Source: Solirubrobacter pauli (GTDB lineage Bacteria; Actinomycetota; Thermoleophilia; Solirubrobacterales; Solirubrobacteraceae). Taken from it: a DNA stretch of 64,000 nucleotides. Positions 38,122 to 48,611 of the stretch are shown here, one piece after another. Where the stretch lies: positions 2,046,001 to 2,110,000 of the forward strand of contig NZ_RBIL01000002.1 in the NCBI RefSeq assembly GCF_003633755.1, given 5' to 3'. Both the position numbers and the translations under genes were made by a program. Position 1 is the stretch's first letter. Every line of letters begins with the position of its first letter. Below the pieces are notes generated by a model that did not search any database, was not told where the DNA came from, and saw only the letters and a list, made by a program, of their open reading frames with translations.

Positions 38122-39453
38122 TCACCTTTGCCGCATGATCTGGCCGAGATCGGGCATCTTGCCCTGCTGGATCCCGCGCATCAGCTTGCGCATCTGGTCG
38201 AACTGCTTGACGAGCTGGTTGACCTGCTGGACCGTCGTTCCAGAGCCCTTGGCGATGCGCAGGCGGCGCGAGCCCTTGATCAGCTCGGGGTGCCGGCGCT
38301 CGTACGGCGTCATCGAGAGGATCATCGCCTCGACGCGGTCGAGCTCCTTCTCGTCGACGTTCATCTTCGACAGCTGATGGCCCGCCAGGCCCGGGATCAT
38401 GCCCAGGAGCGACGTGAGCGGCCCCATGCGCCGGATCTTCTTGAGCTGGTCCAGGAAGTCCTCGAGCGTGAACTGGTTCTTCCTGAGCTTGCGCTCGAGC
38501 TCCTTGGCCTCGTCCTGGTCGACCTGCTGCTCGGCGCGCTCGATGAACGACAGGACGTCGCCCATGCCGAGGATGCGCTGCGCCATCCGGTCGGGGTGGA
38601 ACTTCTCGAAGTCGCCCAGCTTCTCGCCGGTGGAAGCGAACAGGATCGGCTTGCCCGTGACGGCCTTGACGCTCAGAGCCGCGCCGCCGCGCGCATCGCC
38701 GTCCAGCTTGGACAGGATCACGCCGTCGAAGGCCGCCACCTCGCCGAACTGCTCGGCGACGTTGACCGCGTCCTGGCCGGTCATCGCGTCGACGACGAGC
38801 AGCACCGTGTGCGGCTTGACGCGCTTCTTGATGTTGGCCAGCTCTTCCATCAGCGCCTGGTCCACGTGCAGGCGGCCGCTGGTGTCCACGATCAGGACGT
38901 CCTTGCCGTCCCGCTTGGCCTGGTCCAGCGCCCAGCCGGCGATGTCCACCGGGTCCGCATCCGTGCCGCGCTCGTAGACCGTGGCGCCCGCCTGGGCGCC
39001 GACCTTGATCAGCTGGTCCACAGCCGCCGGGCGGTACACGTCGCAGGCCGCGACGGCCACGGACGAGTTGTTCTGCTCCTTGAGCATCTTCGCCAGCTTG
39101 GCCGTGGCGGTCGTCTTGCCCGAGCCCTGCAGGCCGGCCATGAGGATCACGGTCGGCGGCCGCGGCGAGAACGTCACGCCCGCGGACTGGCCGCCCATCA
39201 GGGCGGTCAACTCCTCGTTGACGATCTTGATCACCTGCTGCCCGGGGTTGAGCTGCTTGGTGATCTCGATCCCGAGCGCGCGTTCCTTGACCGCGCTCGT
39301 GAACTGCTTGACGACCTTGAAGTTGACGTCGGCCTCGAGGAGCGCGAGGCGGATCTCGCGCATCGCCTTGTTGATGTCGTCCTCGGTCAGCGACCCGCGC
39401 TGCCGGACGCCGGACAGCGTCCCTTGAAGCTTCTCCGAGAGCGAATCGAACAT
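38122..39453 (-). CDS. ffh: Signal recognition particle protein Ffh
   Basis: Ffh of 443 aa. The N domain (~1-90) and GTPase domain with P-loop [18 protein letters not shown] and KLDGDARGG are followed by the methionine-rich M domain, which binds signal peptides and 4.5S RNA; the [14 protein letters not shown]-binding helix is present. The partner FtsY is at 42434. On the minus strand TACAGT (39467-39462) ends 8 nt before the ATG, a likely near-leaderless -10. It is divergent from sthA by 20 bp. Confidence 0.97.
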
Positions 39454-39473
39454 GGTGTGAGACTGTACCCGCC

Positions 39474-40880
39474 GTGGAGCTCGATCTTCTCGTCATCGGC
39501 TCGGGTCCGGGCGGCCAGCGCGCCGCCATCCAAGCAGCCAAGCTCGGCAAGCGTGTCGCCGTCGCCGAGCGTCGCAACCGCCTCGGCGGTGTCTCGATCC
39601 ATACCGGGACCATCCCTTCCAAGACCTTGCGCCAGGCCACCCTGGAGCAGCTCGCCACGCGCGCGCTGGACGTGCTCGACCCGACGCGGGTCGAGGAGAC
39701 CGAGCAGGAGGCCCTGCAGCAGCTGCTCGACCGCGCCGCCGCCGTGGTGGCCGCCGAGACCGCGATCACCCGCGAGCAGTTCCGGCGCAACCGCGTCGGG
39801 CTGCTGCCGGGCGCCGCGTCGTTCCTGGACGCCAACACGGTGCGGATCGAAGGCAGCGACGAGCCCGTGCGGGCTCAGAACATCGTCATCGCGGTCGGCA
39901 CGCGGCCGGCCCGGCCGAGCACGGTCGCGTTCGACGACCGCACGATCATCGACTCCGACGGCCTGCTCAAGCTCGCCCAGCGCGTGCCGCGCACGATGAC
40001 CGTCGTCGGCGCGGGCGTGATCGGCGTCGAGTACGCGTCGATGTTCGGCGCGCTGGGCACCAAGGTCACGGTCGTCGACCAGCGCGACCGCGTGCTCACA
40101 TTCCTCGACGGCGAGATCGGCGAGGCGTTCCAGTACCTCCTGCGCCGCCGCAACGTCACCTTCCGGCTGCGCGAGAAGGTCGACGGCGTGGACGCGCTGC
40201 CCGGGCGCGGCGCGCGGCTCAGGCTCGCCTCCGGCAAGGAGATCGTCAGCGAGACCGTGCTCTACGCGACCGGCCGCCAGGGCGACACCGACGTGCTCGG
40301 CCTCGACAAGGCCGGCCTGGAGGCCGACAAGCGCGGACGGATCCAGGTCGACGAGAGCTACCGCACCGCGGTCCCGCACATCTACGCCGTCGGCGACTGC
40401 GCGGGCGGCGCCGGGCTCGCCGCCACCGCGATGGAGCAGGGCCGGATCGCCGCGCTGAACGCGTTCGGGCGCCCGGTCAACCAGCTCCCCCAGCTGATCC
40501 CGACCGGCGTCTACGCGGTCCCGGAGCTGGCCCAGGTCGGCAAGACCGAGGAGGAGCTCACGGACGCGTCCGTGCCCTACGTGTGCGGGATCGCGCGCTG
40601 GAGCGAGCTCGCCCGCGGCGTCATCTCCGGCGACCGCGAGGGGATGCTCAAGCTGCTCGTCTCGCCCGAGACCCGCGCCGTGCTCGGCGTGCACGTCCTC
40701 GGCAGCGGTGCCACCGACCTCGTCCATATCGGGCAGGCCGTGATGGCCTCCGGTGACGAGGGCCTGGACTTCCTCGTCACGGCAGTCTTCAACTACCCGA
40801 CGTTCGCCGAGTCCTACAAGGTCGCCGCCCTCGACGCGGACAACCGCATCAAGGGCATGGCGGCCTTCGACCGGGGCTAG
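39474..40880 (+). CDS. sthA: Soluble pyridine nucleotide transhydrogenase
   Basis: A flavoprotein of 468 aa with a GTG start, of the disulfide-oxidoreductase superfamily. GSGPGG (9-14) binds FAD and VVGAGVIGVEYA the NAD(P). The redox-active CxxxxC of dihydrolipoamide dehydrogenase is absent; the site reads HTGTIPSKTLR, as in SthA, so it should exchange hydride between NADPH and NAD rather than reduce disulfides. It ends with a 4-bp overlap of the convergent SPFH gene. Confidence 0.9.
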   Translation: MELDLLVIGSGPGGQRAAIQAAKLGKRVAVAERRNRLGGVSIHTGTIPSKTLRQATLEQLATRALDVLDPTRVEETEQEALQQLLDRAAAVVAAETAITREQFRRNRVGLLPGAASFLDANTVRIEGSDEPVRAQNIVIAVGTRPARPSTVAFDDRTIIDSDGLLKLAQRVPRTMTVVGAGVIGVEYASMFGALGTKVTVVDQRDRVLTFLDGEIGEAFQYLLRRRNVTFRLREKVDGVDALPGRGARLRLASGKEIVSETVLYATGRQGDTDVLGLDKAGLEADKRGRIQVDESYRTAVPHIYAVGDCAGGAGLAATAMEQGRIAALNAFGRPVNQLPQLIPTGVYAVPELAQVGKTEEELTDASVPYVCGIARWSELARGVISGDREGMLKLLVSPETRAVLGVHVLGSGATDLVHIGQAVMASGDEGLDFLVTAVFNYPTFAESYKVAALDADNRIKGMAAFDRG

Positions 40881-41935
40881 GCGGCCGGCGCCGGGGGCGG
40901 CGGCGGGATCTCGCGCGGCGCCGGCGGGGTCCCGACACCGGCGTTCGTCGCGCTCTCGGCCTCCTCCGTCGCCGCGGCGGCGGCGCGGGCGGCGTCCTCG
41001 GCGTCCTTGCGCGCGCGCTCGTCGATCTCGTCCATCGACGTCGCCCCGGCCGGCTTCTTCGGCTTGGTGGCGCCCGCGAACTGCTCCGTCAGGCTCGACA
41101 CGGCGGACGTGAACTCGGACGGGATGATCCAGATCTTGTTCGCGTCGCCCTGCGCGAGCTGCGGGAGGGTCTGCAGGTACTGGTACTGCAGCAGCGCCTG
41201 GTCCGGCGCGCCCTCGTGGATCGCGTTGAAGACGGTCTCGATCGCCTTCGCCTCGCCCTCGGCCTTGAGGATCGCGGCGGTACGGGCGCCCTCGGCGCGG
41301 AGCACGGCGGACTGCTTCTCGCCTTCGGCGGTGAGGATCTGGGACTGCTTGACGCCCTCGGCGGTGAGGATCGTCGCGCGGCGGTCACGCTCGGCGCGCA
41401 TCTGCTTCTCCATCGCCTCCTGCACCGTCCGCGGCGGCTCGACCGACTTGAGCTCGACGCGCCCGACGCGGATGCCCCAGCGGCCCGTCGCCTCGTCGAG
41501 CACGGCGCGCAGCTGGCTGTTGACGCTGTCACGCGAGGTCAGCGTCTCCTCCAGCGTCATGCCGCCGATCACGTTGCGGAGCGTGGTGACGGTCAGCTGC
41601 TCGATCGCCTGCAGCGGGTTCGCGACCTCGTAGGTGGCCGCCCGCGCGTCGGTGACGGTGAAGTAGATGACCGTGTCGATGCCGACGACGAGGTTATCCT
41701 CGGTGATCACGGGCTGCGGCGGGAAGGACACCACCTGCTCGCGCAGGTCGATCAGCGGCTTCACGCGGTCGATGAACGGGACGATCAGCGTCAGCCCCGG
41801 GTCCAACGTGCGGCTGTAGCGGCCGAGCCGCTCGACGATCCCCGCGCGCGCCTGCGGCACGATCCGCACGCCCGACGCCGCGACGATGAACAAGAACACG
41901 ATCAGCACGATCAGGACGATCAGTCCTGCGGTCAT
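40877..41935 (-). CDS. SPFH/Band 7 protein (stomatin/QmcA-like)
   Basis: A membrane-anchored scaffold protein of 352 aa. One N-terminal helix (~3-22) precedes the SPFH domain (VPQARAGIVERLGRYSRTLDPG in segments), then a long coiled coil with repeated TAEGxKQS motifs (ILTAEGVKQSQILTAEGEKQ). The C-terminus is acidic then proline-rich. It assembles membrane microdomains. It follows an NfeD gene 15 bp upstream, the typical SPFH/NfeD pair. Confidence 0.92.
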   Translation of the reverse strand: MTAGLIVLIVLIVFLFIVAASGVRIVPQARAGIVERLGRYSRTLDPGLTLIVPFIDRVKPLIDLREQVVSFPPQPVITEDNLVVGIDTVIYFTVTDARAATYEVANPLQAIEQLTVTTLRNVIGGMTLEETLTSRDSVNSQLRAVLDEATGRWGIRVGRVELKSVEPPRTVQEAMEKQMRAERDRRATILTAEGVKQSQILTAEGEKQSAVLRAEGARTAAILKAEGEAKAIETVFNAIHEGAPDQALLQYQYLQTLPQLAQGDANKIWIIPSEFTSAVSSLTEQFAGATKPKKPAGATSMDEIDERARKDAEDAARAAAAATEEAESATNAGVGTPPAPREIPPPPPAPAA

Positions 41936-41950
41936 GCGGTGTACCCCCTC

Positions 41951-42379
41951 TTACTCGCTCACGAGCGCCGTTGCGCCCCGGATCTCGAGCACGTGCACCT
42001 TGGTGCCCGGCTCGATGATGGCGTCGTCGTCATAGGCGCGCGCCGTCCAGATCTCGCCGTCGAGCTTCACGCACCCGACGCCTTCATCGTTGGCGATGCG
42101 CTCCATGACGATCGCCGTCTGCCCCACCAGCGCCGCGGTCCCCATCTTCAGCGCCCGGCCCTTCTGGTGCGAGCGCGCCAGCGGCCGCAGCGCGGCCAGC
42201 AGGACGAGCGACACGACCAGGAAGGCGGCCGCTTCGATGGTGGTGCCCGCGTCGAACGCGGCCAGGATCGCGGCCACGGCCGCCCCGCCGGCGAACGGGG
42301 CCAGGAAGAAGCCCAGCGTGGCGATCTCGCCCACGGCGAGCACCACCGCGATGATCAGCCAGATCGCCCAGGAATCCAC
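41951..42379 (-). CDS. NfeD-like membrane protein
   Basis: A protein of 142 aa from the GTG at 42379, chosen because AGGA lies 8 nt upstream; an ATG at 42415 would add 12 residues. Three or so membrane segments (WAIWLIIAVVLAVGEIATLG and AAAFLVVSLVLLAAL) precede a soluble OB-fold domain ending KVHVLEIRGATALVSE. NfeD proteins act with SPFH partners, here immediately downstream. It lacks the ClpP-like protease domain, so it is the short form. Confidence 0.87.
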   Translation of the reverse strand: MDSWAIWLIIAVVLAVGEIATLGFFLAPFAGGAAVAAILAAFDAGTTIEAAAFLVVSLVLLAALRPLARSHQKGRALKMGTAALVGQTAIVMERIANDEGVGCVKLDGEIWTARAYDDDAIIEPGTKVHVLEIRGATALVSE

Positions 42380-42433
42380 TGGTTCGATCCTATCTCGCAA
42401 TCGGGAGGCGAGCATGGGGAGCCCGCCCCACGC

Positions 42434-43429
42434 TCATGCCGTCAGCAGCGCTCGCGCGAAGTCGTCGGGGTCGAACGGGCGCAGGTCCTCGAGCTGCTCG
42501 CCGATGCCGATCAGCTTCACGGGGATGTTGAGCTCGTTGGCGATCGCGAGCGCAATGCCACCCTTGGCCGTCCCGTCGAGCTTGGTGAGGATGATCCCGG
42601 TCACGTCGACCGCCTCGCCGAACAGCTTCGCCTGGCGCACGCCGTTCTGGCCCGTGGTGGCGTCGACGGTCATCAGCGTCTCGTGCGGCGCGTCCGGCAT
42701 CTGCTTGGTGATCACGCGCCGGACCTTGGCGAGCTCCTCCATCAGGTTCGTCTGCGTGTGCAGGCGGCCGGCGGTGTCGATGATGATCACGTCGGCGCCG
42801 CGCTCACGGCCGCGGGCGATCGCCTCGAAGGCGACGGAGCCGGGATCGGAGCCCTCCGGGCCCTTGACCACGTCCACCCCGGCGCGCTCGCCCCAGCGCT
42901 CGAGCTGCTCGACGGCGGCGGCGCGGAAGGTGTCCGCGGCGCCGACGACGACCGTGAGGCCGAGCGTGTTCTTCAGGTGCCAGGACAGCTTGCCGATCGT
43001 GGTCGTCTTGCCGGTGCCGTTGACGCCGACGACGAGGATCACCGTCGGGCTCGGCCGCAGGTCGATCTTGTCGTCGCCGGTGCGGGCGAGCTGGGCGAGC
43101 ATCTCGGCCAGGCGGTTGGACAGCGCCTCGCCGCCGACGAGGTTGCCCTCCTCGGCCTCGCGTTCGAGCTCCTCGACGACCTGGGCGGTCGTGCGCGCGC
43201 CGACGTCGGCGTAGATCAGCGCCTCCTCGAGGCGCTCCCACGTCTCCTCGTCGAGGTCGCCCTCGAACAGCGTCGCCTGCACCTCGGCGGCGAGGGCCTC
43301 GCGCGTCTTGCGCATGTTCTCGCGCAGCCGCTTGAAGAAGCCGCGACGCTTCTCCTCGCGCTCGGGCTCGGCGGGCACCTCGGCGGGCGCCTGGTCGAGG
43401 AGGAAGAGGTCGTACCAGTCTCTGGCCAT
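42434..43429 (-). CDS. ftsY: SRP receptor FtsY
   Basis: FtsY of 331 aa. A short acidic A region (APAEVPAEPEREEK) precedes the NG domain with GVNGTGKTTTIGK P-loop, DTAGRLHTQ and KLDGTAKGG. It docks the SRP-ribosome complex to the membrane. The start ATG is at 43429; -10-like TATCCT lies 10 nt upstream on the minus strand. Its conserved neighbour smc is separated here by a small plus-strand gene, a VOC gene and the hexad protein. Confidence 0.97.
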   Translation of the reverse strand: MARDWYDLFLLDQAPAEVPAEPEREEKRRGFFKRLRENMRKTREALAAEVQATLFEGDLDEETWERLEEALIYADVGARTTAQVVEELEREAEEGNLVGGEALSNRLAEMLAQLARTGDDKIDLRPSPTVILVVGVNGTGKTTTIGKLSWHLKNTLGLTVVVGAADTFRAAAVEQLERWGERAGVDVVKGPEGSDPGSVAFEAIARGRERGADVIIIDTAGRLHTQTNLMEELAKVRRVITKQMPDAPHETLMTVDATTGQNGVRQAKLFGEAVDVTGIILTKLDGTAKGGIALAIANELNIPVKLIGIGEQLEDLRPFDPDDFARALLTA

Positions 43430-43831: not shown

Positions 43832-43863
43832 CTGAAGCATCGACGGCGCGCCGGAAGCTTCAG
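43832..43863. terminator. Bidirectional hairpin between converging genes
   Basis: CTGAAGC (43832-43838) and GCTTCAG (43857-43863) form a perfect 7-bp stem, with a CGGCG/CGCCG dyad in its loop. It lies 7 nt after the membrane gene stop and overlaps the stop of the convergent VOC gene, so it may terminate both. No U-tract is present. Confidence 0.5.
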
Positions 43864-44231
43864 TGGGCCTCGACGTGCTCGGCCACGTTGATGACGTGGC
43901 CGCCCGGTGCTCTGACGAAGAAGCGGCGGATGCCCCACGGCTCGTCCGTCAGCGGGTAGACGATCTCGAGGCCGTCGCGCTGCGCTCGCTCGTAGAGCGC
44001 CGTCGCGTCCTCGACCTCGACCGAGACGTGCGCGTCCTTGATGCCGCGGTCCTGGCCCTCGACCTTGAGGTCGGCGATCGTGATCTGCGCCGTCGGGTTG
44101 CTCGGTGAGCGGAACATCTTGAAGCCGGGCTCGTCCATCGCGGGCTCGAAGCCGAGGAAGTCGGCGAAGAAGGACTTCGCGGCCTCGGCGTCCTCGACGA
44201 CGAGGTTCGGGACGGCGCGGCGGATGGTCAC
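43860..44231 (-). CDS. VOC-family (glyoxalase-fold) protein
   Basis: A protein of 123 aa with a GTG start overlapping the upstream stop (GTGA). Two beta-alpha-beta-beta-beta units are visible, starting IRRAVPNLVVEDAEAAKSFF and ending GIRRFFVRAPGGHVINVAEH in segments. Metal ligands expected in this fold are partly present (H near the C-terminal NVAEH). It could act on small electrophiles or bind antibiotics of the bleomycin-resistance type. It is the last gene of the smc operon. Confidence 0.88.
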   Translation of the reverse strand: MTIRRAVPNLVVEDAEAAKSFFADFLGFEPAMDEPGFKMFRSPSNPTAQITIADLKVEGQDRGIKDAHVSVEVEDATALYERAQRDGLEIVYPLTDEPWGIRRFFVRAPGGHVINVAEHVEAH

Positions 44232-44671
44232 TTGTGCACGCCGACGAGGCCGACGCCACCCGTGATGCCGCTGCACCCGATGCAGCCGACGCAGCCCGTG
44301 CAGTTCACGCAGCCGACGCACGCGACGCAACCGCTGCAGCCGACGTTGCCAAGCCCGCCGACGATGCCCGCGGAGCCGATGATCCCCGCCGACAGCGCGA
44401 CGCCGGCGCTGCCGATGACCGCGGCCGAGCCGGTGACCCCCGCCGAGCCGGCGACGGCGGCGGAGCCCGTGACGGCGGCGCTGCCGACGACCGCGGCCGC
44501 ACCCACCACACCCGCGGAGCCGACCACGCCCGCCGCGCCGATCACGCCCGCCGATCCGACGACGCCGACCGACCCGTCCACGGCGACGGACTTGTAGACG
44601 TGGTGCGAGCCGACGAGGACCGTGGAGGCCTGCTCGGCGGTGCCGTCGCCGTTCTCGATCGTGTGGCTCAT
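44228..44671 (-). CDS. Glycine-hexad repeat protein with terminal CxxC ladder
   Basis: A protein of 147 aa. After a short head (1-33) residues ~34-110 are an almost perfect six-residue repeat of the type VGSAGV/IGAAGV, about 13 units, all small residues with Gly every third position in most. It then becomes cysteine-rich: eight cysteines (112, 115, 118, 121, 124, 127, 130, 133), one every third residue. A left-handed beta-helix or a polyglycine-II-like bundle would stack these into a ladder able to bind metal. ATGA overlap with the smc stop and GTGA overlap with the VOC gene support translation. I know no function. Confidence 0.75.
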   Translation of the reverse strand: MSHTIENGDGTAEQASTVLVGSHHVYKSVAVDGSVGVVGSAGVIGAAGVVGSAGVVGAAAVVGSAAVTGSAAVAGSAGVTGSAAVIGSAGVALSAGIIGSAGIVGGLGNVGCSGCVACVGCVNCTGCVGCIGCSGITGGVGLVGVHK

Positions 44672-47600
44672 GCCGCGGCTTCCTCCTCGACCGGCTTCGG
44701 GAGCTTGCGGGAGATGACCTTGGAGACGCCGTTGCCCGCCATCGACACACCGTACAGGGCGTCGGCGGCCTCCATCGTGCGCTTCTGGTGGGTGACGACG
44801 ATGAACTGCGCGCGGTCGCTGAAACCGCGCAGGACCTGCAGGAAGCGGTCGATGTTGAGGTCGTCGAGCGCGGCTTCGACCTCGTCGAGGATGTAGAACG
44901 GGCTCGGCTTCGCGAGGAACACGGCGAACAGGAACGCGAGCGACGTCATCGTCTTCTCGCCGCCGGAGAGCAGCGTCAGGCGCTTCGTCGACTTGCCCGC
45001 CGGCGTGATCTCGATCTCGACGCCGAGCTTGTCCTCCGGGGTCTCGCCGTCGGCGTCCTCGGGCTCGTCCACCTCGGCGGCGGGCTGCTCGGGGTCCACG
45101 CCGCCGAGGACGGGCCGCGGGCCGGCGTCCTCACGGACGAGCCGCAGCGCGCCGCGGCCGCCCGGGAACAGGTGGCCGACGACCTCCTCGAAGTTCTTCG
45201 CGGCCGCCGTGAAGGTCTCCTCGAAGGCCTCCTTGATCCGGCGGTCGGTGTCCTTGATCAGCTGCGCGAGCTCGCGCATCGCGGTCTCGAGGTCCTCGCG
45301 CTGCGTCTCGAGCTCCTCGACGTGCGCGAGCGCCTCCTTGTACTCCGCCTGCGCGAGCGGGTTGACCGGCCCGAGCTGCTCGCGCCGGCGCTGCAGGCGC
45401 TCGATCGTCTTGCTCAGGTGCGCGCGCTCGTCCTCGCCGAGCGCCTCCTCGGACGGCTCCGGCTCCAGCCCGAGCTTCTCGGCGAGGCGCACGAGCTCGG
45501 CCTCGACGTCCTCCGCGTGGTCGCGTGCTCGCTGCGCCTGGACCTCGCCGCGCGTGACCGTCTCGCCGCGCTCCCGGAGCCGCGCGTGCACGCGGGACTC
45601 CTCCGCGGCGCACTCACGCAGCTCCTTCGCGAGCTGCTCGCCCGCGGCCTTGTCGGCGTTGAGCTCGGCCTCGAGCGCCTCGACCCGGTTGGCGACCGCA
45701 CCCTGCACGGACTTCAGCGCGGCTGCGAAGCGCTCGGCGACCGGCTTGAGCTGCCGGTCGCGCTCCAGGCGGCGCTCCTCGTGCTCGAGCCGGCGGGCTC
45801 GCTCCGCGCGTTCGCGGTCGGCACGCTCCTTGAGCCGCCGCTCCGTGGCGATCTGCGACTCGACCTGCGCCTTGCGGTCGGCGCTCGGCCCCTCGTCGGG
45901 CGCGGACCGCCGCTGCTGGATGACCCAGCGCGCGTGGCGCTCGGCCTCGGCGGCCTCGTCGCGCTCGCGGGCGGCGGCGCGCGCCTCGCGATCGATGCCC
46001 TCGCGCGCGGCGTCGGCCGCAGCGACCGTCGTCTGCGCCTCCTCGACCGCGGCCAGCGCGGCCCGCTCGGCCCGCGCGGCCTCGTCGACCTGCCCGACGA
46101 GCGCGTCGCGCCGGTTGCGCTCCTTGAGCACGCGGTCGTGGCCGCCGGGCGAGACCTGCCGCAGCTCGCGCGTCCGCGGCGACCACACGCGCCCGTCCTT
46201 GGTGACCGCGATGCCGTCGAAGTCGGCGCGGACGGCCGCGACGTCGTCGACGACCCACACGTCCGCGAGGATGGCCGCCGCCAGCGCGCGGACGGGCTCG
46301 TCGCCGCCGGCCTGCACGTGCGCGGAGAGGGGCTCGGCACCGTCGGCGGGCGGCGAGGCCGCGGCGCCGGTGGCCGCGCCGAGCACGTCCGCGGGCGTGG
46401 CACCCTCGGGCACGATCAGCGCGGCCGCGCCGTCCTTGCCGCCCTTGGACAGGAGCTTCGCGCCCGACTCGAGGTCCAGCGCCACGCCGGCGCGCAGGCG
46501 CGGGCCGAGCGCGGCGGAGAGCGCGAGCTCGTACCCCGGGGCGGCCGTGAGCGTGTCGGCGAGCGCCTTCGCGCCGCCCGGGGCGCCGGCGTTCGCACGC
46601 AGGAACTGGTTGACCTTGGCGAGCTCGGCGCCGATCCGCGCCGACTCGCGGCGGGCCTTCTCGGCGGCGACGTCCAGCTCCCGGCGTGCGCGGCGGGCGG
46701 CTTCGGCCGCGGCTTCGCCCTCGGAGCGGCGGGCCGCCGCGGCCTGGGCGACCGCCGTCTTCTCGGCGAGCGCCGCCGTCGCCGCCTCGCGGCCGGTCTC
46801 GAGCTCGGCCAGCTCGCGCTCGAGGCGCACGCGGTGGTCCTCGGCCAGCGCCGTGAGCTCCGCCTGCAGCCCGGCGATGCGCTCCTCGGTGCCGTCGTCG
46901 CCGGTGTCGGCCTTGATCTCGGCGCGCAGCGCGGCGATGCCGCCTTCGCGGCGCTTGCTGCGCTCGTCGAGCTCGCCGATCAGCCGCTGCGCCGCGTCCA
47001 GCCGCATGCCGATCCGCTCACCGGACGACCGCGCCGAGTAGAACCGGGACGACAGCGTCTCGCGCTCGCTGCCGCGCGAGGACAGCGCCTCCTCGGCCTT
47101 CTGGCGGCGCGCGCCGACGGCCTTGTACTCCTCTTCGGCGGCCGCGGCGGCCGCGCGGGCCTCGCCCACGGCGGTCTCGGCCTCGACCAGCCCCGCCCGC
47201 GCGCCGCGCGCGTTGTCGCGGGCCAGCGTCCAGCGTGCCTCGTCGCTCTGGCGCTCGATCCGCTCGTGCAGCTCCGCGGCCTCGGCCTGGCGCTTCAACG
47301 GCTTCAGGCGTGACCGCGCCTCGCGCTCCACGTCCAGCGCCCGGTCCAGGTTGTCCTGGGTGCGCTCGAGCTTGAGCTGCGCCTTGCGGCGGCGCTTGCG
47401 GTGCTTGCCGAGGCCCGCCGCCTCCTCGATCAGCATCCGCCGGTCCTTGGGCTTGGACGTGACGATCTCCATCACGCGCCCCTGGGAGACGACGGAGTGC
47501 ATCTCCTTGCCCATGCCGGTGTCCGAGAGGATCTCGATCACGTCGGTGAGGCGGCACTTGGCGCCGTTGATGCGGTACTCGCCGTCGCCGGCCCGGTTCA

Positions 47601-47910
47601 GCCGGCGGGTGATCGAGATCTCGCCCGCGGGCAGGTCCACCCGGCCGGACGCGTTGTCCAGGACGACCTCGACCTCGGCCTCCGAGCGCGACTTCACGCC
47701 GTGCGCCCCGGCGAAGATCACGTCCTGCATCGACTGGCCGCGCACCGCGACCGGCGACTGCTCCCCGAGCGCCCACAGCACGGCGTCCGTGATGTTGGAC
47801 TTGCCGGACCCGTTCGGCCCGACGATCACCGACACCCCCGGGGCGAAGGTCAGCCGCGTCCGGTCCGGGAACGACTTGAAGCCCCGCAGGGTGATCGAGC
47901 TCAGGTGCAC
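44668..47910 (-). CDS. smc: Chromosome segregation protein SMC
   Basis: SMC ATPase of 1080 aa, somewhat shorter than many. Walker A GPNGSGKS (31-38), LLSGGEKTMTSLAF signature and FYILDEVEAALDD Walker B are intact, with long Ala/Glu/Arg coiled coils and a hinge around residues 440-560 (GAPGGAKALADTL onward). The GTG start overlaps the rnc stop by one base. The kleisin partners ScpA/ScpB are not in the window. It organises and separates chromosomes. Confidence 0.95.
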   Translation of the reverse strand: MHLSSITLRGFKSFPDRTRLTFAPGVSVIVGPNGSGKSNITDAVLWALGEQSPVAVRGQSMQDVIFAGAHGVKSRSEAEVEVVLDNASGRVDLPAGEISITRRLNRAGDGEYRINGAKCRLTDVIEILSDTGMGKEMHSVVSQGRVMEIVTSKPKDRRMLIEEAAGLGKHRKRRRKAQLKLERTQDNLDRALDVEREARSRLKPLKRQAEAAELHERIERQSDEARWTLARDNARGARAGLVEAETAVGEARAAAAAAEEEYKAVGARRQKAEEALSSRGSERETLSSRFYSARSSGERIGMRLDAAQRLIGELDERSKRREGGIAALRAEIKADTGDDGTEERIAGLQAELTALAEDHRVRLERELAELETGREAATAALAEKTAVAQAAAARRSEGEAAAEAARRARRELDVAAEKARRESARIGAELAKVNQFLRANAGAPGGAKALADTLTAAPGYELALSAALGPRLRAGVALDLESGAKLLSKGGKDGAAALIVPEGATPADVLGAATGAAASPPADGAEPLSAHVQAGGDEPVRALAAAILADVWVVDDVAAVRADFDGIAVTKDGRVWSPRTRELRQVSPGGHDRVLKERNRRDALVGQVDEAARAERAALAAVEEAQTTVAAADAAREGIDREARAAARERDEAAEAERHARWVIQQRRSAPDEGPSADRKAQVESQIATERRLKERADRERAERARRLEHEERRLERDRQLKPVAERFAAALKSVQGAVANRVEALEAELNADKAAGEQLAKELRECAAEESRVHARLRERGETVTRGEVQAQRARDHAEDVEAELVRLAEKLGLEPEPSEEALGEDERAHLSKTIERLQRRREQLGPVNPLAQAEYKEALAHVEELETQREDLETAMRELAQLIKDTDRRIKEAFEETFTAAAKNFEEVVGHLFPGGRGALRLVREDAGPRPVLGGVDPEQPAAEVDEPEDADGETPEDKLGVEIEITPAGKSTKRLTLLSGGEKTMTSLAFLFAVFLAKPSPFYILDEVEAALDDLNIDRFLQVLRGFSDRAQFIVVTHQKRTMEAADALYGVSMAGNGVSKVISRKLPKPVEEEAAA

Positions 47911-48611
47911 TAGACCCCGCCCATGGACTCCAACGCCGATTCGGCAGCGGCCTGCTCGGCGTCCTTCTTGGACCGCCCGCTGCCGCGCGCGAGCTCCGCA
48001 CCGTCCACCATCGCGGCCACCTCGAAGGTGCGCTCGTGTGGCGGCCCCTCCTCGGACGCGACCTCGTACACGACGACCGTGCCACGCCGCGCGAGCTGCT
48101 CCTGCAAGGCGCTCTTGAAGTCGGCCGGGTGGGCCAGCGCGCGCTCGATCTCCGGCTGGAACGCCTCCACCACCGCGTCGGCCACGTCGATGTAGCCGAA
48201 CTCGAGGTAGCACGCCCCGATCACGGCCTCGATCACCGACGCGAGCACGCGCTCCGTGCGGGCGAGCTGCTCGGTCGCGGGACCGGCGAACTCCGGCGGC
48301 GCCGCGTTCTTGAGCCGCTCCGGGATGCCCAGCCGCTCGGCCACGTCACGACACGAGCGGCCCGAGACCGCCTGCGCGCGGACCTTCGTGAGCCGGCCGG
48401 CGCCGAACGCGTCGGGCTCCAGCCGCGGGTACAGGTGCGTCGTCACGGCCAGCCCCAGGACGGAGTCGCCGAGGAACGCGAGCCGCTCGTAGGAGTCCGA
48501 GCGCTTCTCCGTCCACGACGAGTGCGTGACCGACTGCCGCGCCAGGTCGGGCGGCAGCGCCTCGAGCATGTCGTGCAGCTGTTGCAGCGGCTCAGGAAGG
48601 TCGGTGGGCAA
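47910..48611 (-). CDS. rnc: Ribonuclease III
   Basis: RNase III of 233 aa with a TTG start. The endonuclease signature is ERLAFLGDSVLGLAV, and the second acidic block SVIEAVIGACYLEFG holds the metal ligands. The C-terminal double-stranded-RNA-binding domain (~155-230) ends GSGRSKKDAEQAAAESAL. It processes rRNA and mRNA. The start lies within the acpP end (20-nt overlap) and it is coupled to smc. Confidence 0.95.
   Translation of the reverse strand: MPTDLPEPLQQLHDMLEALPPDLARQSVTHSSWTEKRSDSYERLAFLGDSVLGLAVTTHLYPRLEPDAFGAGRLTKVRAQAVSGRSCRDVAERLGIPERLKNAAPPEFAGPATEQLARTERVLASVIEAVIGACYLEFGYIDVADAVVEAFQPEIERALAHPADFKSALQEQLARRGTVVVYEVASEEGPPHERTFEVAAMVDGAELARGSGRSKKDAEQAAAESALESMGGV

Follow-up and report, generated by a model that had tools for sequence, protein, structure and literature searches.

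Small proteins of an apparently undescribed family join a rod-like repeat of 12 residues to a terminal run of cysteines placed at every third position, and one of them is encoded in a 64,000-nucleotide stretch of Solirubrobacter pauli DNA (contig NZ_RBIL01000002.1, positions 2,046,001 to 2,110,000; hereafter the window, whose own numbering is used below). The gene in question, referred to as the ladder gene, occupies 44228..44671 of the window, starts with ATG and encodes 147 residues; the coordinates proposed in an earlier note on this DNA were correct, and the gene lies on the minus strand. With a probability of about 0.4, we read its product as a cytosolic rod of 12-residue turns whose C-terminal tip, lined by thiols, would bind a metal or iron-sulfur (Fe-S) cluster or store thiols. 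Searches of open-licence PMC papers, judged from their result listings, brought up no description of the family; the earlier note had called this gene its best candidate for an undescribed system.

Repeat, cysteine ladder and conservation

The protein (all coordinates on the minus strand) begins with a tail of 32 residues (44576..44671) that is polar and, in the family alignments, variable, and in which the predicted local distance difference test (pLDDT) score drops below 50 at residues 1-3 and 12-22. Residues 33-110 (44342..44575) comprise approximately 13 hexads of Gly, Ala, Ser and Val, equivalent to 6.5 dodecads, for which the structural model and the repeat statistics predict a beta-solenoid with 12 residues per turn. 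They are followed by the cysteine ladder (residues 112-133, 44273..44338), in which eight cysteines at residues 112, 115, 118, 121, 124, 127, 130 and 133 share a single phase modulo 3, exactly the three-residue steps that had been noted earlier. The Gly-rich C-terminal tail (residues 134-147, 44231..44272) corresponds to a family consensus near GLRGAVG. Residues 33-146 contain no D, E, K or R, and the protein is devoid of proline.

Homologues, which the earlier note had not been able to look for, do exist: a scan of 84,980 species genomes yielded at least 117 relatives, many of them from mycobacteria and other actinobacteria of soil, and 80 loci were kept. Four of these (L033, L075, L079 and L104) were dropped for broken or cut frames before the analyses of periodicity, register, charge and the position of a neighbouring dehydrogenase gene, while alignments A2, A3 and A4 are chosen subsets of 60, 41 and 50 loci, each plus the window. 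Among 77 proteins counted, the repeat spans 4-19 hexads (median 12) and the strictly spaced run contains 7-14 cysteines; the ladder is found within the last 70 residues of the relatives inspected, cut frames aside. Of the ten columns that are invariant in A2 (61 sequences), eight fall within the ladder or directly after it.

The distribution of the family is patchy, with carriers in 5 of 296 genomes across a sample of the phylum, 6 of 149 of the class, 6 of 7 of the genus and 53 of 118 of a probably mycobacterial genus. Judged by reading the open reading frames (ORFs), a search of 61 related genomes recovered ladder-bearing relatives in the genome of S. pauli itself (one match), in five of six congeners and, outside the genus, in nine genomes; a fragment of a ladder was recovered as well. 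Carriers among the matches listed include Solirubrobacter, Mycobacterium, Mycolicibacterium, Pseudonocardia, Actinomycetospora, Geodermatophilus, Blastococcus, Williamsia, Desertimonas and Kineosporia, and also, among others, metagenome bins labelled Chloroflexi and Dormibacterota. Weak matches of the related-genome search (E 3.3e-7 and above) were left out: the CxxC filter let through a single one of the sequences fetched, the ladder fragment L023, and several of them are ordinary collagen-like GPQGPxG proteins. When family proteins were compared by tblastn, with the low-complexity filter on, against plasmids and phages, no match was obtained. Note also that a contig titled Bifidobacterium breve (L035, from a metagenome bin) carries a Solirubrobacter-like ladder gene; this title is probably a mislabel.

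The gene is under purifying selection. Nonsynonymous divergence (dN) is lower than synonymous divergence (dS) in all ten pairs among five ladder genes of the genus (dN 0.145 and dS 0.489 for the window gene and its nearest congener), with a GC content of 0.93-0.97 at third positions, so the possibility considered in the earlier note that the repeat arises from simple DNA repeats only is not borne out. Periodicities of 9 and 18 bases are present in the DNA of the gene, as expected from the protein repeat.

Self-identity of the repeat region in 74 proteins reaches 0.557 at a lag of 12 residues, compared with 0.377 for lag 6, 0.362 for lag 18 and approximately 0.15 for lags 3, 9 and 15; the value at lag 12 is the higher of the first two in 67 of 68 proteins. 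As judged from these sequences, the repeat unit is a dodecad with the hexad as a sub-period. The hexads described earlier are present, but the unit that repeats is twice as long. The dominance of lag 12 speaks against the left-handed helix of hexapeptide proteins, in which a turn takes 18 residues, a lag with a far lower value (no hexapeptide family was among the matches either), and equally against collagen-like triplets, for which lag 3 would suffice. The start codons of several relatives were chosen by hand, and some wrong N-terminal extensions remain in these self-identity values and in the register counts given next.

Repeat and ladder are in one common register. The last serine of the repeat shares its phase modulo 3 with the first cysteine of the ladder in 76 of the 77 proteins, such that the same every-third column reads Ser, Thr/Val, Ser, Val along the repeat and then Cys in the ladder. 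This column is nearly free of charge: trimmed repeats carry 3 charged residues among 1798 in the Ser/Thr/Val column, as against 53 and 108 among 1798 in the other two, and the ladders carry none among 894 in the Cys column, as against 68 and 181 among 817. In untrimmed repeats the contrast is weaker (5.1, 7.5 and 9.5% charged); trimming removes the extensions. The near-uncharged column probably faces inward.

A trace of the same period is seen within the ladder. Opposite charges lie exactly 12 residues apart 60 times in 76 distinct ladders, compared with 39.8 (standard deviation 2.7) in column shuffles, and the excess persists after redundancy cuts (45 vs. 28.9, n = 61; 24 vs. 15.1, n = 37), shrinking with harder ones to 8 vs. 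5.1 (n = 17, reached by 48 of 1000 shuffles) and 5 vs. 2.9 (n = 10, reached by 86 of 1000). For the strongest pair, at offsets -19/-7 from the last cysteine, Fisher p values at these four cuts are 3e-9, 1.6e-4, 0.028 and 0.18. Taken with the register and the charge column, these pairs suggest that the 12-residue turn continues through the ladder, which would therefore present four cysteines per turn in four columns. The ladder of the window protein would then amount to two full turns of four cysteines, with more turns in many relatives.

Predicted fold and the candidate thiol-lined tip

AlphaFold2 predicts a beta-solenoid both for the window protein (mean pLDDT 74.8, predicted template modelling score [pTM] 0.62) and for a Pseudonocardia relative (82.1 and 0.62), and in the ladder it places a bridge at every third residue, on the residue that follows each cysteine. 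The solenoid announced in the earlier note is thus supported by the prediction; its single stacked line of cysteines is not, as a 12-residue turn would give two turns of four cysteines and four columns. The top row of VIA-align for both models is 1ezg, the antifreeze protein of Tenebrio molitor (Z 11.2, rmsd 2.5 and 82 aligned residues for the window model; Z 8.6, rmsd 2.5 and 81 for the Pseudonocardia model). Like the ladder family, 1ezg has a 12-residue repeat, carrying Cys, Ser, Cys and Ala at every third residue, and a published study describes its internal serine ladder (PMC3196904). Differently from 1ezg, the proteins studied here would have four cysteines per ladder turn instead of two, a core of Ser, Thr and Val elsewhere, and probably no secretion. 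Membership in the insect antifreeze family was rejected: the 12-residue periodicity is there, but PF02420 is missing from the Pfam search of the window protein (in which Collagen is the sole family with an E of up to 1), and the TCT ice-binding motif is absent from the 147-residue sequence.

Two further groups of proteins invite comparison. Metallothioneins are likewise small and dense in cysteine, but the ladder proteins differ from them by the repeat scaffold and by the exact three-residue spacing, and no metallothionein family was among the profile matches of the window protein and its relatives. Pentapeptide-repeat proteins, which have five residues per side and 20 per turn, appear as weak Foldseek matches (MfpA, E 0.098; QnrB1, E 0.3); the predicted turn of the ladder proteins has 12.

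From the models and the periodicity, the ladder proteins would fold as a thin beta-solenoid rod in which each turn takes 12 residues. Along the repeats, the residues of the every-third column (Ser, Thr/Val, Ser, Val) would face inward; over at least the final two turns, cysteines would fill the four inward positions of each turn, giving a thiol-lined core at the C-terminal end. This putative thiolate cage, carried on a rigid and nearly uncharged rod, would most likely hold a cluster, either of metal ions or of the Fe-S type, or act as a protein thiol store.

Several observations weigh against the reading of a thiol-lined rod. Both Z values obtained with 1ezg are below approximately 13, the level under which VIA-align cautions that a match between repeats may reflect a mere common arrangement, and other rows for the window model reach 9.5 and 9.4. 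Foldseek searches of the PDB with both models gave no match at E ≤ 0.001, just low-scoring beta-helix matches, and AlphaFold2 over-predicts solenoids for repeat proteins, as stated in an excerpt of a dedicated study (PMC11795689). If the aligned ranges of the window model are taken as ungapped, the cysteine column of 1ezg falls on a glycine column, one residue off the register based on composition, so that the direction of the cysteines is tentative. The self-identity of the window protein alone is 0.65 at lag 12, barely above the 0.63 at lag 6, with 0.59 at lag 18, and because this difference is small the 12-residue unit rests on the family. As to the charge pairs, the shuffles and Fisher tests ignore phylogeny, separations of 4, 9, 11, 13, 24 and 25 residues also exceed the shuffles, by smaller counts, the pair at -22/-10 is significant at n = 61 (p 0.011) and not from n = 37 down, and the pair at -20/-8 is not significant at any redundancy cut. 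Finally, no metal gene was seen among the 30 largest clusters of neighbours, read by eye, or among 20 scanned partners.

Other explanations of the ladder

The main alternative, itself rather unlikely, is that the ladder is a disulfide-stapled end cap in which inward cysteine pairs cross-link the turns, the rod being the functional part. In the beetle antifreeze protein, the best aligned fold, inward cysteine pairs do cross-link each turn, and the position of the ladder close to the C-terminus would suit a cap. A precedent is provided by fungal ice-nucleating proteins, whose beta-solenoids are stabilised by disulfide caps according to an excerpt of their description (PMC13288671). On the other hand, inspection of the window protein, with no predictor run, revealed no signal peptide, which makes the reducing cytosol its likely location; the number of ladder cysteines shows no preference for parity (43 even and 34 odd of 77), which argues mildly against obligatory disulfide pairs; and the concentration of invariant columns in or directly after the ladder is unfavourable to a mere staple.

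Decidedly less probable is a silk- or collagen-like Gly-rich fibre, or a polyglycine-II bundle of triplets, in which the cysteines would serve as cross-links. The window protein passes the cut-off of the Pfam Collagen model (PF01391; 32.4 vs. 27.2 bits), the same model picks up nine of 14 relatives at E up to 0.1, collagen chains head the PDB sequence matches (E 6.4e-36), PHROG families of tail fibres and collagen-like tails match the window protein as well, and the lack of charge from residue 33 onwards is compatible with a fibre. The period, however, is 12 with a sub-period of 6, and not 3; over the family, the share of glycine at the four every-third positions in question is no more than 24-84%, and proline is lacking in the window protein. 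Given this irregular glycine and the 12-residue period, the collagen scores are read as an effect of composition, and collagen was rejected as an assignment, its strict glycine triplets and richness in proline being absent.

It is also very improbable that the protein is the precursor of a ribosomally made and post-translationally modified peptide, whose CxxC repeats would be converted to thiazoles or thioethers. Ladder genes of Campylobacter phages (see below) do lie three genes upstream of a radical S-adenosylmethionine (SAM) gene. No match to the heterocycloanthracin model was obtained from NCBIfam, a library that presumably holds it. The YcaO family (PF02624) has no match in the S. pauli genome (given as 96.5% complete), while as a control it was detected in 5 of 14 genomes, and no cluster of modification enzymes was seen beside the ladder gene in the neighbour listings inspected. 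Precursors of the heterocycloanthracin type (TIGR03601) resemble the ladder proteins in their C-terminal Cys-Xaa-Xaa repeats and triplet indels, and an excerpt of the literature indicates that they may be encoded far from their enzymes (PMC2674419); the window protein is longer and has a repeat rod. A thiazole/oxazole peptide of this kind was therefore rejected for want of both YcaO and a precursor-model match. That the gene is spurious, an open antisense frame in high-GC DNA, is hardly credible: other long frames overlap it on both strands, but dN is below dS in all ten pairs, the start and stop overlaps are conserved in the genus and relatives occur at quite different loci.

Gene neighbourhoods and viral ladders

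In the window, the ladder gene is preceded by smc (44668..47913, minus strand; the listed ORF extends to 48213, the start near 47913 being an estimate from relatives) and followed by a VOC (glyoxalase-fold) gene with a GTG start (43860..44231, minus strand), recognised by a Pfam Glyoxalase match on the VOC gene of a relative (L032). The ATG of the ladder gene at 44671 and the stop of smc overlap by four bases (ATGA, 44668-44671), as do the stop of the ladder gene and the GTG of VOC (GTGA, 44228-44231). These overlaps, on which the earlier note had based a tie to smc and VOC, are real, and the gene order is the same in six of seven genomes of the genus, namely all those that carry the ladder gene; a general linkage to smc did not hold up, as only two Solirubrobacter loci among the 79 loci examined have it. 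In the seventh genome (L117) the ladder and VOC genes are both missing after smc, while a relative of the adjoining antiparallel small gene is retained; ladder and VOC genes may thus be gained and lost together. Elsewhere in the window, two SRP-type GTPase genes lie 3 kb apart, ffh-like (38122-39453) and ftsY-like (42434-43429), with transhydrogenase-like, slipin-like and NfeD-like genes in between (38122-43429 overall; names from reading the sequences). An Rfam search gave no match in the window.

As a guide to function the neighbours are strong, yet bound to lineages, smc being a partner only in this genus among the loci examined. SdhA- and SdhB-like genes precede the ladder gene at 6 of the 79 loci, and at five to six, in Solirubrobacterales, it stands between a pyruvate dehydrogenase E2-like gene and LipB, which follows in five; next, by reading, comes LipA, which where it occurs near the ladder gene reads as an ordinary lipoyl synthase. 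In mycobacteria the ladder gene adjoins a short-chain dehydrogenase (SDR) gene and an oligopeptide ABC transporter. Within 1.5 kb of the gene at 30 loci sampled from the 53 carrier genomes of the mycobacterium-like genus, the SDR (at least 60% identity) was found at 17, the ABC transporter at 13 and SdhB at none. The SDR is upstream in some loci and downstream in others, with a mean identity of 77.7% between the two sets; this occurrence on either side of one SDR, often by one ABC transporter locus (L118-L147), suggests that the small gene moves locally. Enzymes of redox and lipid metabolism often accompany the ladder gene, but genes of these kinds are plentiful in the genomes concerned. SdhB, LipA, WhiB and an ABM-domain protein would fit an iron-sulfur theme, which was noticed post hoc, lacks statistical support and was not relied on.

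Proteins with cysteine at every third residue are also known from viruses. Long ladder proteins of phages (PHROG 15341), among them those of Campylobacter phages such as CPt10, share this spacing with the family described here but differ in having 18-43 triplets (in nine measured), an Asp/Asn-rich composition and no visible dodecad rod before the ladder. The PHROG 15341 profile, which is Cys-rich, weakly matches the ladders of all four family proteins tested over 26-42 residues, with E 5.8e-5, 5.9e-6 and 6.7e-5 for three relatives and 0.0055 for the window protein; 14 other PHROGs outscore it for the window protein, and it also matches six of six IMG/VR ladders tested, out of nine found. Homology of phage and actinobacterial ladders is unproven, because low complexity alone can give such scores. 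Among the top fold matches in a viral library are two proteins, from Campylobacter virus IBB35 and from a relative of mimivirus, and the CPt10 record carries tandem insect-antifreeze notes by the depositor, mostly of 33-36 bases, in the ladder protein, naming PF02420. In the viral ladders (L155 and L157-L162 from IMG/VR, L163 and L164 from Campylobacter phages) nearly all of the 18-43 triplets have cysteine, and self-identity has a weak local maximum at lag 12 (0.265, vs. 0.204 at lags 9 and 15, but 0.268 at lag 3). In the two Campylobacter phages (L163:8007-10262 and L164:6010-8389) the ladder gene is followed by a metallophosphoesterase gene, a small ORF and the radical SAM gene, the first two lying between the others; from this gene order it is possible that the enzyme modifies the phage ladder. 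Such phages encode 11-12 radical SAM proteins, according to an excerpt of their description (PMC2853527).

A more specific form of the thiol-lined rod, which we hold to be unlikely, is a metalloprotein scaffold: with four inward cysteines per turn, metal ions or Fe-S units would line up along the rod axis in steps of about 4.8 angstrom, the usual rise of a beta-solenoid, forming a metal-thiolate string that several actinobacterial lineages would have placed beside redox enzymes (SdhAB, pyruvate dehydrogenase/lipoate, SDR). What gives the family its interest is that two strong regularities, a rod of 12-residue repeats and an end in which every third residue is a cysteine, are joined in at least 117 members. 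Should the core hold disulfides or nothing, the family would still allow a clean test, provided by nature, of whether the solenoids that AlphaFold2 draws for repeat proteins are real, because sequence covariation predicts the turn length independently. If the core holds metal, the ladder proteins would add a new component to redox metabolism and represent a very small, rigid and extendable metal scaffold of use to bioinorganic chemists and protein designers.
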